Source of the DNA: Exiguobacterium profundum
GTDB taxonomy: Bacteria; Bacillota; Bacilli; Exiguobacteriales; Exiguobacteriaceae
Reading direction: 5' to 3'
Assembly (NCBI RefSeq): GCF_001909285.1
Contig: NZ_MRSV01000001.1
Coordinates: forward strand, 1,537,680-1,601,679
DNA: 64,000 bases
In this document: positions 10,113 through 59,135 of the stretch, in pieces
Layout of the letters: each line of letters starts with the position of its first letter
How positions within the stretch are numbered: position 1 is the stretch's first letter
Notes under the pieces: generated by a model
Database searches by the model: none
The model's input: only the letters and a program-made list of their open reading frames with translations
What the model was told of the DNA's origin: nothing
Made by a program: the position numbers and the translations under genes

Positions 10113-10186
10113 GGCGGTGTAGCTCAGCTGGCTAGAGCGTACGGTTCATACCCGTGAGGTCGTGGGTTCGACTCCCTCCGCCGCTA
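10113..10186 (+). tRNA. tRNA-Met (CAT), elongator
   Basis: A full cloverleaf is present: acceptor GGCGGTG/CGCCGCT, D-arm GCTC/GAGC, and anticodon stem TACGG/CCGTG with loop TTCATAC (anticodon CAT). The TTCGA-containing T loop has one T-T mismatch in its stem. The anticodon stem lacks the three G-C pairs of initiator tRNA, and the sequence is nearly identical to the B. subtilis elongator tRNA-Met as I recall it. CCA is not encoded. Confidence 0.93.
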
Positions 10187-10193
10187 TTTATAA

Positions 10194-10267
10194 GGACCCT
10201 TAGCTCAGCTGGTTAGAGCAGACGGCTCATAACCGTCCGGTCGTAGGTTCAAGTCCTACAGGGTCCA
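10194..10267 (+). tRNA. tRNA-Ile2 (CAT anticodon, read as k2CAU)
   Basis: The cloverleaf has acceptor GGACCCT/AGGGTCC and anticodon stem GACGG/CCGTC with loop CTCATAA. The anticodon is CAT, but the body matches the Bacillus Ile2 tRNA whose C34 is changed to lysidine by TilS so that it reads AUA. It is co-transcribed with tRNA-Met, 7 bases apart. CCA is not encoded. Confidence 0.88.
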
Positions 10268-57362: not shown

Positions 57363-58094
57363 GTGATTACATTATGTATTGCGGACGACAATCGAGAAAT
57401 CGTCGATTTGTTGAGCCGACAACTAGAATCCGAGCCTGATCTTCGTGTCGTAGGTACGGCACACGATGGAGAAACATGCTTGGATGTCGTCAAGACACAC
57501 CAACCGGATGTACTCTTACTCGATATTATCATGCCGCATTTGGATGGAATCGGAGTATTGCAACGCCTAAATGAAGAATTAGGTGATGACAAGCCGGAAG
57601 TGATCATGTTGAGTGCGTTTGGAAAAGATGAAGTGACGAAACAGGCCGTGCAACTCGGGGCCTCTTATTTCCTCGTCAAACCGTTCAATATCCAACAGTT
57701 ATTAACGAAAATTCGTGAATTGTCAGAAGGGACAAATCGAGAATTTGACGGAATGACGCCAGAAGAAATTGAAATCTCACTCCTGCTTCAGCAACTCGGA
57801 ATCTCTCCGCGCATCAAAGGGTTCAAGTATATTCGTCAAGCCGTCATCTACGTGCGAGAACGGCAAGATTTACTCGGACTCATCACGAAAGAATTGTACC
57901 CGATGGTCGCAAAAGAGCATGAGACGACATCCTCTCGTGTAGAACGAGCAATGCGTCATGCAATCAAGACGGCATGGGAGAACGGCATGCGTGATCATGA
58001 GATGTTCGAAGGGCGACCAGAGCGTGAACGAAGCCCGAAAAACTCGGAGTTCATCTCGTACTTTGTCACCTACGTATCGTTTAAAAATAATTGA
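57363..58094 (+). CDS. spo0A: Response regulator Spo0A
   Basis: This 243-residue protein has a receiver domain (acidic D8/D9, phospho-acceptor D54 in LLLDIIMP, Lys in LVKPFN near 105). A C-terminal Spo0A DNA-binding domain follows with SRVERAMRHAIKTAW as recognition helix. All key residues look intact. The GTG start directly follows the recN stop, with AAAGGAG 8 bases upstream. Spo0A controls entry into sporulation in Bacillus, but spo genes are missing around it here. It may control biofilm, competence or stationary-phase genes; that is inference. Confidence 0.95.
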   Translation: MITLCIADDNREIVDLLSRQLESEPDLRVVGTAHDGETCLDVVKTHQPDVLLLDIIMPHLDGIGVLQRLNEELGDDKPEVIMLSAFGKDEVTKQAVQLGASYFLVKPFNIQQLLTKIRELSEGTNREFDGMTPEEIEISLLLQQLGISPRIKGFKYIRQAVIYVRERQDLLGLITKELYPMVAKEHETTSSRVERAMRHAIKTAWENGMRDHEMFEGRPERERSPKNSEFISYFVTYVSFKNN

Positions 58095-58105
58095 ATCATT
58101 TCATG

Positions 58106-58138
58106 AAGACTAAGTCGTGATGGGACTTAGTCTTTTTT
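58106..58138 (+). terminator. Terminator of recN-spo0A
   Basis: AAGACTAAGTC pairs with GACTTAGTCTT, followed by TTTT. Confidence 0.85.
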
Positions 58139-58185
58139 GATTAAACTTTCACTTTTAGATTTATTTACTTTATGAAAGAAAGCGC

Positions 58186-58213
58186 TTGCAAAATGATGGA
58201 CCTTTGTTATAAT
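58186..58213 (+). promoter_or_regulatory. Strong sigma-A promoter of the post-spo0A RNA locus
   Basis: TTGCAA (58186-58191) and a perfect TATAAT (58208-58213) are separated by 16 bases. No protein gene follows on this strand before a terminator. Confidence 0.7.
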
Positions 58214-58219
58214 AAAGGT

Positions 58220-58747
58220 GTACCAAGTTACTTGGACAAGCGTCAGATGAACGCTTTTCAAACTTGTTCCGGAGCAACGTTTGAAGAAACCAAAATCATC
58301 TCGGTTCGCTATCCGATTATAGCTCAGAGGTGGGAACGACACCTCAAGTCGTTAATGTCCCGACGTGAGGTCGCGACAGTCGCTCATTCGCGAGGCGATT
58401 CTATTATCAACTCGAAGCTAGGGGTTGGTATAGGAAAAAACAATCGTTCAGTTAACCAAAAGGAGTGTTGTCAACCGTTGAACAGTTTATGGCAAGCGTT
58501 CGACTTCACGATGGATGGTTCGACATGATCCGATAAGTAAATCAGTTAGTAACTCGAATGGTAAGATTCCGTTCACGCAAGACGGCAGTTACTAAAGTTC
58601 TTTCATACTTCTTCATTAAGAAGACGTTGGATTTCATGTCAAAGTAAGTAACGTAGTTTGAAAGGAGATCATCCGTAGTGATCACAATTCAATATGAATA
58701 AAAGGTTCCGCACTTGAAATGAAGTCAAGTTAGGGAACCTTTTTTTG
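58220..58747 (+). ncRNA. Candidate structured noncoding RNA, about 530 nt, family not recognised
   Basis: The stretch from the promoter at 58186-58213 to a terminator at about 58700-58747 (AAAAGGTTCC/GGAACCTTTT plus T7) holds no convincing protein gene. It has many complementary segments. ACCTCA-A-GTCG (58341-58351) pairs with CGAC-G-TGAGGT (58361-58371). GAGGT at 58327-58331 could compete for the same ACCTC. TTAGTAACT (58546-58554) pairs with AGTTACTAA (58587-58595), and GTTACTT (58227-58233) could close the whole fold with AAGTAAC (58646-58652). A seven-codon frame MITIQYE with AAAGGAG upstream starts at GTG 58678. It does not resemble RNase P, tmRNA, 6S or SRP RNA by eye. OLE RNA occurs in this neighbourhood in other Firmicutes, but no oapA gene is present. 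Confidence 0.55.
58700..58747. terminator. Terminator between the RNA locus and the DUF2627 gene
   Basis: AAAAGGTTCC (58701-58710) pairs with GGAACCTTTT, with an inner CACTTGA/TCAAGT stem and a seven-T run. It can serve both strands. Confidence 0.8.
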
Positions 58748-58752
58748 TGTTT

Positions 58753-59001
58753 TTATGAGTCGAGGCGTTGTACTTTTCCTGTTTTTTTGTTTTTGTTAAA
58801 AATATAGCCAGCTACAAATCCGATCCCGCCCATGGCGAGCAGAAGCCCAAAGGTGCCCTGCAACATGGAGGCGGCAGCGAGTGAATCGAACCATGAAAAC
58901 GGTGCGCTCGTCTTCAAAAAGAAGCTATCGCGTAGCAATTTGATTCCGTAAACACCTAATAACCCAGGGACGATTAAGATTAGAAGCGCGATAAAACGCA
59001 T
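58753..59001 (-). CDS. DUF2627 family membrane protein (YqzF type)
   Basis: This protein of 82 residues has two membrane helices (about 2-22 and 42-66) and a basic C-terminus. It reads MRFIALLILIVPGLLGVYGIK, the typical opening of DUF2627. ATG 59001 is chosen because GGAGGA lies about 7 bases upstream. It sits beside bkdR as yqzF does in B. subtilis. The function is unknown. Confidence 0.82.
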   Translation of the reverse strand: MRFIALLILIVPGLLGVYGIKLLRDSFFLKTSAPFSWFDSLAAASMLQGTFGLLLAMGGIGFVAGYIFNKNKKTGKVQRLDS

Positions 59002-59135
59002 GCAATCTCCTCCTTTACCATACATTATTTTAACAGAAATCGATCTGTTCGACACGGTCTATTTTTGGGCAGCTTGCGAATCAGGTGAGGATTCAGTAGC
59101 ATAAAATAGAGAAGAATGATGATGGGGGAATATGT

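Follow-up and report, generated by a model that had tools for sequence, protein, structure and literature searches.

To our knowledge, few classes of large and complex bacterial RNA are known, and most of them are without a settled function. ROOL and GOLLD, two large folded RNAs without a known protein product, are often phage-borne, and both classes are represented in Rfam. OLE is a large RNA of Gram-positive bacteria, with 616 positions in its covariance model, and we take its usual position to be in the dxs-recN-spo0A neighbourhood. RNAIII of Staphylococcus and SR1 of Bacillus are structured RNAs that have their own promoter and terminator and contain a small open reading frame (ORF). OLE, ROOL and GOLLD are described as homo-oligomers in PMC12286853.

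The locus analysed here lies directly downstream of spo0A in a 64-kb window (the whole stretch of DNA that was analysed) of an Exiguobacterium-type genome, and it resembles each of these systems in part. Like OLE, it would encode a large RNA of a Gram-positive bacterium in the same dxs-recN-spo0A neighbourhood, but here the RNA lies after spo0A and has no match to the OLE covariance model. As with ROOL and GOLLD, the RNA is large, folded and without a known protein product, and a self-complementary CCGG loop could allow RNA-RNA association; however, it matches no Rfam family, and no match was found in plasmids and phages (blastn, E 1e-5) or, with one motif, in viral contigs. The combination of a structured RNA with its own promoter, a terminator and a small ORF is reminiscent of RNAIII and SR1, but the ORF has 7 codons, lies at the extreme 3' end and shows weak evidence of coding. 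The RNA is not described in the literature found, in which few subscription papers were covered; this includes the accessible parts of PMC10837837, in which predicted sRNAs of the genus were counted with PredGsRNA, of PMC5399880, which lists riboswitches, and of PMC8632094. We conclude that the locus represents a new family of large structured RNA. Our main reading, to which we give a probability of roughly 0.6, is that it is the gene for an independently transcribed RNA of about 525 nt that would act in trans as a folded molecule.

Results

A promoter-to-terminator unit downstream of spo0A

A sequence-only reading of this DNA had proposed a promoter-to-terminator unit after spo0A, and our analysis confirmed that the unit is real. 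It extends from about 58220 to 58747 on the plus strand, between spo0A and a convergent DUF2627 gene, and the region is organized as follows.

57363 to 58094, plus strand: spo0A, the upstream neighbour (Pfam PF08769 and PF00072).
58105 to 58135, plus strand: intrinsic terminator of spo0A, a 12-pair stem with a T tail.
58176 to 58190, plus strand: cre-like box AAGAAAGCGCTTGCA over the -35 element, with one mismatch to what we take to be the CcpA consensus.
58186 to 58213, plus strand: sigma-A-type promoter TTGCAA-16-TATAAT with a TG extension, kept in 38 of 38 homologues.
58220 to 58747, plus strand: structured RNA, its start estimated from the promoter position.
58700 to 58747, plus strand: intrinsic terminator of the RNA, with a T run after the stem formed by 58701-58709 and 58734-58742.
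58753 to 59055, minus strand: DUF2627 gene, the convergent neighbour (Pfam PF11118), found by motif in 37 of 38 loci.

The RNA is about 525 nt long in the window and 520-753 nt long across its relatives. The promoter recognized in the earlier reading consists of TTGCAA (58186-58191), a 16-nt spacer and a TG-extended TATAAT (58208-58213), and all 38 homologues have in common TTGCAN, the identical 16-nt spacer and TGNTATAAT, in which TGN precedes TATAAT. The promoter consensus alone occurs in the window at chance level (2 found versus 2.0 expected in shuffles). Transcription of the RNA would start from this conserved promoter. At the other end, the terminator that had been claimed is visible both in the sequence and in the fold, as the stem and T run given above, and was not listed by a simple terminator scan. 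The A tract on the other strand suggests that this terminator may also serve the convergent DUF2627 gene.

As the RNA lies directly downstream of spo0A and on the same strand, it might be regarded as a 3' untranslated region of that gene or as a cis-acting leader. However, the spo0A terminator, which separates the two, and the conserved promoter lie in between, and the gene that follows is convergent, which leaves the RNA without an evident cis target. Furthermore, L042 has a gene with a RibD_C domain (321-971) that separates the RNA from the end of spo0A, and L047, in which spo0A is outside the sequence stretch compared, has an integrase-core (IS3-like) gene (2141-2959) just upstream of the RNA. 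In both cases the RNA and its promoter are intact beside this gene, which shows that the RNA is an independent unit. A cis-acting role of this kind is thus extremely improbable.

In the first genus, all 19 loci have the cre-like box with a single mismatch, which suggests carbon catabolite control of the RNA there. In the second genus, a cre-like box with at most two mismatches is present in 10 of 19 loci, further upstream, and the best site has three or four mismatches in the other nine. These nine loci cluster on the RNA tree and include those of the repeat-bearing species described below.

Comparison with known RNA classes and protein genes

In a search with Rfam 15, no family reached its gathering score in the locus, and the seven sub-threshold matches found up to E = 10 between 58080 and 58800 were at chance level (E 0.88 to 5). 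The suggestion that the RNA might belong to another known class is therefore not supported, as there was no match at gathering score and nothing credible below it. Two adjacent tRNA genes at 10113-10267 are the sole Rfam matches at gathering score in the 64-kb window.

A divergent OLE had been put forward as well, and the RNA has a length similar to that of OLE and, with gene names assigned by eye, the same dxs-to-spo0A neighbourhood. However, OLE (RF01071) is not among the locus matches up to E 10, and it exceeds its cut-off in none of the 38 family genomes, a count that is without a positive control, since 14 control genomes also gave none. The sole OLE match below E 10 in the family genomes scored 9.4 bits over 18 positions and lies outside the RNA locus. 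Between dxs and the next gene of the window, which is presumably where oapA might be expected, there is a 6-base gap and no same-strand ORF (gene names again by eye). With no Rfam 15 match at gathering score, we consider it very unlikely that the RNA is a divergent form of some known large class, with OLE as the main candidate. The third option of the earlier reading, a new RNA, is supported.

A protein gene was also rejected, in agreement with the observation that the locus holds no credible protein. The longest plus-strand ORF (58172-58528, 118 codons) begins before the promoter and gave no match in Pfam. The 98-codon frame of the window that lies inside the RNA is open for at least 90 residues in 3 of 19 first-genus sequences, the window included, and has no match in any of the 19 second-genus sequences. 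Pieces of 36-80 residues of this frame do align in 16 of 19 first-genus sequences, an effect of the high similarity of the DNA; the relatives as a whole have no long conserved frame.

Conservation and distribution

The decisive support for the locus comes from its conservation. A homologue of the RNA is present in all 38 genomes of the family, which comprise two genera and are all the genomes of the order in the collection. In the first genus, blastn detected a near full-length homologue in 19 of 19 genomes, the other 18 being 85-94% identical to the window. In the second genus, all 19 genomes gave a match to the 5' end of the RNA and 18 of them also to the 3' end at the cut-off; the 3' end is present in the nineteenth as well. 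A covariance model of the 5' domain gave a match in 38 of 38, and the gap between spo0A and the downstream gene is conserved in all 37 relatives examined. The sequence-only reading had named an unconserved gap and a conserved coding frame as outcomes that would refute it; neither was observed, which speaks for a real RNA.

Within each genus, sequence identity is higher for the RNA than for its two flanking protein genes (Spo0A gene found in 28 of the 38 stretches, DUF2627 in 37). In the first genus, its mean identity is 0.899 (89.9%; 171 pairs), compared with 0.815 overall and 0.501 at four-fold sites for spo0A and 0.491 at four-fold sites for DUF2627 (153 pairs). The corresponding values in the second genus are 0.881 (88.1%) for the RNA, 0.819 for spo0A (36 pairs) and 0.801 for DUF2627, and within the genera the four-fold sites of the neighbour genes are 43-50% identical, so that the RNA is under strong constraint. 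In comparisons across the genera, identity of the RNA does not exceed that of the complete spo0A gene (0.594 versus 0.602, or 59.4% versus 60.2%); DUF2627 stands at 0.565, and the four-fold sites at 0.372 and 0.296.

Among genomes of Bacilli outside the family, model R1 gave no match at E <=0.01 in any of 360 (398 searched, of which 38 belong to the family). Model R2 reached E <=0.1 in 7 of about 272 (299 less 27 of the family), namely G158, G168, G073, G100, G084, G128 and G296. The best of these matches, in G158 (E 2.4e-5), is antisense inside an ORF that reads by eye like what we take, from its motifs, to be an ABC ATPase, and it was rejected as a homologue. The matches in G168, G073 and G100 (E 0.013-0.05) were rescored; in G073, R1 (17.4 bits) and R2 matched one and the same place, which a real RNA cannot do, and this match was rejected for that reason. 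At 26 spo0A loci of other Bacilli, three weak matches were found (E 0.09 to 0.78). In G007, a match that might be another copy of the 5' part (E 0.008) was judged by eye to be due to chance. A scan of 84,980 species genomes with an exact motif returned 20 stretches, all labelled Exiguobacterium; as the motif is strict, its absence elsewhere means that this motif alone is absent. Across these searches, of which those over 40 genomes used stricter filters and lost weak matches, the RNA appears to be confined to this family.

Secondary structure and covariation

The RNA of the window has a predicted minimum free energy of -152.6 kcal/mol (z -4.26), and 0 of 100 shuffles were as stable; the z values of two relatives are -2.81 and -2.98. 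The following elements were identified.

58223 to 58235, plus strand: hairpin H1, CCAAG/CUUGG, replaced by CCAAA/UUUGG in the second genus.
58239 to 58255, plus strand: hairpin H2 with the loop CAGAUGA; AGAUGA is kept in 38 of 38 and two stem pairs are swapped between genera.
58256 to 58286, plus strand: hairpin H3, with CCGG in its loop at 58269-58272 (38 of 38) and stems that change wholly, judged from folds.
58297 to 58332, plus strand: hairpin H4, with an outer stem CAUCUC/GAGGUG (weak in the second genus) and an inner stem GCUA/UAGC.
58347 to 58400, plus strand: three-way element, formed by P4b (58347-58353 with 58394-58400), H5 (58356-58378, with a C-C mismatch) and H5b (58380-58393).
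58408 to 58427, plus strand: core of hairpin H6 with the loop GAAGCUAG and repeated compensatory changes in the stem.
58522 to 58640, plus strand: helix P8 of the 3' domain, GACAUGA (58522-58528) with UCAUGUC (58634-58640), around a junction that P1 closes.
58546-58554 with 58587-58596, plus strand: junction helix P1, with three pairs swapped between genera.
58608 to 58623, plus strand: hairpin CUUCUU-CAUU-AAGAAG, replaced by CCUCUU-CAUU-AAGAGG in the second genus.
58667 to 58683, plus strand: 3' hairpin GAUCA-UCCGUAG-UGAUC, with one pair swapped, A-U for U-A, between genera.

As judged from the alignments, the hairpins keep their architecture and their loops while the letters of the stems change, both between and within genera. 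The stem of H2, for example, is AGCGU/ACGCU in one genus and GACGU/ACGUC in the other around the AGAUGA loop, and one pair of the CUUCAUUAAG hairpin is likewise swapped between genera. In H4, 84.8% of the cells are paired in the outer stem and 95.6% in the inner stem, where the pair 93-104 changes from U-A to C-G. For the three-way element (first genus, 19 sequences, 16 distinct), 98.7% of the cells are paired and four pairs are changed on both sides, compared with 20-46% and 0-2 pairs in slid controls; within it, 15 of the 16 inferred changes in P4b keep the pair. The H6 loop GAAGC[UA]AG occurs in 36 of 38 sequences, and over both genera (15 distinct) H6 is 81.1% paired versus 28-66% in slid controls, slides by +1 and -1 giving 64-66%. 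Double changes in H6 number five in the inner stem in the first genus and three over 13 positions in the second, and pair-breaking changes number six in the counted inner stem and six over 13 positions, respectively. The seven pairs of P8 are present in 19 of 19 first-genus sequences, where they are nearly invariant, and an analogue in the second genus was recognized by eye.

In alignment A3 (34 distinct sequences), 94.4% of the cells are paired and five pairs are changed on both sides, versus 26-42% and none in slid controls, and in alignment A4 (33 distinct) the values are 99.7% and five, versus 45-57% and at most one; the structures used with A3, A4, A5 and A6 come from these sequences themselves, a bias in their favour relative to the slid controls. 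For H3, a hairpin next to the 15-nt motif described below, the outer stem of H6 and P8 of the second genus, the assessment relied on folds and inspection by eye, without controls. Shuffles matched or beat the pair-type counts in A3, A4, H6 and P4b/H5/H5b, and the counts of pairs with double changes in A4 and H6. A phylogeny-aware covariation test, which is an approximation and not R-scape and had little power, found 2 of 68 proposed pairs significant (A3 93-104 and A6 21-44) and none over all column pairs. Most between-genus changes fall on one deep branch and are discounted by such a test. Plain alignments of each genus yielded 0 and 1 significant covarying pairs. With the covariation result as a caveat, a complex secondary structure is conserved over several hundred nucleotides, as is expected of a large structured noncoding RNA.

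Long-range helix and alternative pairings

Three further segments of the RNA are engaged in predicted long-range pairings.

58336 to 58345, plus strand: left strand of the long-range helix LR1 (ACGACA and CUC), pairing with 58463-58471.
58458 to 58472, plus strand: 15-nt motif AAAAGGAGUGUUGUC, identical in all 38 homologues, with its 3' part forming the right strand of LR1.
58598 to 58604, plus strand: UUCUUUC, pairing with GAAAGGA at 58660-58666 in a possible pseudoknot that would mask a ribosome site.

LR1 joins UGUUGU of the 15-nt motif to ACGACA (58336-58341), and CUC (58343-58345) is a possible partner for the GAG of the motif. Six pairs, the inner ones, are kept in 227 of 228 cells (114/114 and 113/114 by genus), and the first genus has lost the seventh; all seven together are kept in 246 of 266 cells, versus 55-153 of 266 in slid controls. 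The pair-keeping changes (C to U and G to A) are on the left strand only. LR1 is present in the RNAalifold structure of the first genus and in the fold of L042. This helix would close the middle domain, and it is a better candidate for such a role than the closing stem suggested in the sequence-only reading (58227-58233 with 58646-58652), which exists in the window but has all seven pairs in only 2 of 19 first-genus sequences and is thus not a conserved feature.

That reading also saw a switchable fold in mutually exclusive GAGGT/ACCTC/GAGGT pairings. One of these alternatives is possible in 19 of 19 first-genus sequences and the other in 18 of 19, but the second genus has no GAGGUG at this place, and ACCTC has a third partner besides the two GAGGT segments. 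The switch idea holds up in part only: exclusive pairings are possible, but the closing stem fails and no covariation proves both forms. AGAUGA of the H2 loop (58244-58250) and UCAUCUC (58296-58302), each kept in 38 of 38, are mutually complementary, and in the first genus UCAUCUC also pairs with GAGGUG (58327-58332), giving it two exclusive partners. These two partners are a possible switch, here again without proof from covariation.

The 5' part of AAAAGGAGUGUUGUC, AAAAGG (58458-58463), looks like a ribosome site without a well-spaced start codon.

Through exposed segments such as this AAAAGG, the RNA could instead act in trans by pairing with mRNAs, and a regulatory RNA of that type could look similar to a scaffold RNA. 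This explanation would account for a 15-nt segment that is invariant in 38 of 38 and whose 5' part is unpaired in many folds, and the cre-like box suggests regulated expression. However, conservation extends over most of the length and includes many paired elements rather than one seed, and the 3' part of the motif is explained by LR1. Ten loci with short secondary matches were inspected as candidate mRNA targets and rejected: two matches are antisense to an ORF, but in unrelated genes, and five fall into two gene neighbourhoods that genomes have in common, but run in the sense direction. Pairing with mRNAs is therefore a rather unlikely main function. Constraint over most of the length together with many loops, unlike the pattern of an antisense RNA with one seed, argues that the RNA works through its fold, as in our main reading of a folded RNA acting in trans.

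The 7-codon ORF

A short ORF just before the terminator had already been recognized, and it is conserved in its outline throughout the family.

58678 to 58701, plus strand: 7-codon ORF GTG-ATC-ACA-ATT-CAA-TAT-GAA-TAA behind GAAAGGAG; GTG, six codons and TAA are kept in 38 of 38.

The ORF is preceded by GGAG or GGGG 10-11 nt upstream. Its predicted peptide is VITIQYE in 19 genomes, VKPILYE in 9 and VKPTLYE in 7, with three singletons (VKTTLYT is among the variants). The 3' end sequence of 16S rRNA was not found in the draft genome, and a reading of ribosome-site complementarity was dropped. In the pairing of UUCUUUC with GARAGGA, 100% of the cells are paired, with differences (A or G opposite U) on one side only that prove little.

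These features raise the alternative of a dual-function RNA, in kind like RNAIII or SR1, from which the 7-codon peptide is made and in which the fold gates the ribosome site through UUCUUUC and GARAGGA. The constant GTG-6 codons-TAA frame with its upstream GGAG or GGGG and the fully kept ribosome-site pairing agree with it, as do the changes by codon position (3/6/12); however, 8 of the 12 third-position changes are at one Tyr codon, and the remainder split 3/6/4. In addition, the amino acids vary (VITIQYE, VKPILYE, VKTTLYT), and the stop lies inside a conserved A tract before the terminator, so that conservation of the ORF may not reflect coding. A dual function would also leave 500 nt of conserved structure unexplained. 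Translation of the ORF is possible on weak coding evidence, and we regard the dual-function explanation of the locus as improbable compared with that of an RNA acting as a folded molecule.

A tandem repeat in six related genomes

In six genomes of the second genus (L045, L046, L050, L054, L055 and L056), a 10-nt tandem repeat is present at one site of the RNA. The repeat of L046 (1289-1479, about 190 nt) consists of 19.1 copies of the unit AAGCAAGACC, and the copy number differs between species; the copies of L046 were computed and those of the other five counted by motif. The six genomes are neighbours on the RNA tree, and their RNAs reach 753 nt. Repeats rich in A and C are poorly structured, and the repeat would fit an exposed arm or peripheral loop.

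Discussion

Our analysis leads to a reading of the locus that keeps one part of the interpretation drawn from the sequence alone, the new RNA, finds no support for OLE and the other known classes, and retains the switch in part only. By analogy in kind, not in descent, with the large 'ornate' RNAs OLE, ROOL and GOLLD, the RNA may be a scaffold. Its conserved loops, AGAUGA, CCGG, GAAGC[UA]AG, AAAAGG, CUUCAUUAAG and UCAUCCG, may serve to hold partners, either protein or RNA, or to hold each other. In many species, the promoter would be subject to carbon catabolite control. As a guess, the 3' ORF, with its ribosome site paired to UUCUUUC, could tie the state of the RNA to ribosome binding.

The CCGG loop is both invariant and self-complementary, and it provides a lead for self-association, such a 4-mer being not unlikely by chance. 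A bolder proposal, which we put forward as a doubtful one, is that of an order-wide RNA machine of the grade of OLE, ROOL and GOLLD but unrelated to them. In such a machine, a body of many helices, with a long-range helix closing it, would self-associate through the CCGG loop and carry at its 3' end a 7-codon ORF masked by a pseudoknot, binding of the ribosome or of a partner would flip its states, and one subclade would have a lengthened, single-stranded repeat arm.

The 38-genome alignment, the two covariance models and the draft structure provide a ready start for further study, and the RNA is well suited for proposal to Rfam as a new family. For the family itself, the finding means that a large, complex bacterial RNA is kept in each of its 38 genomes, in organisms that can be cultured.
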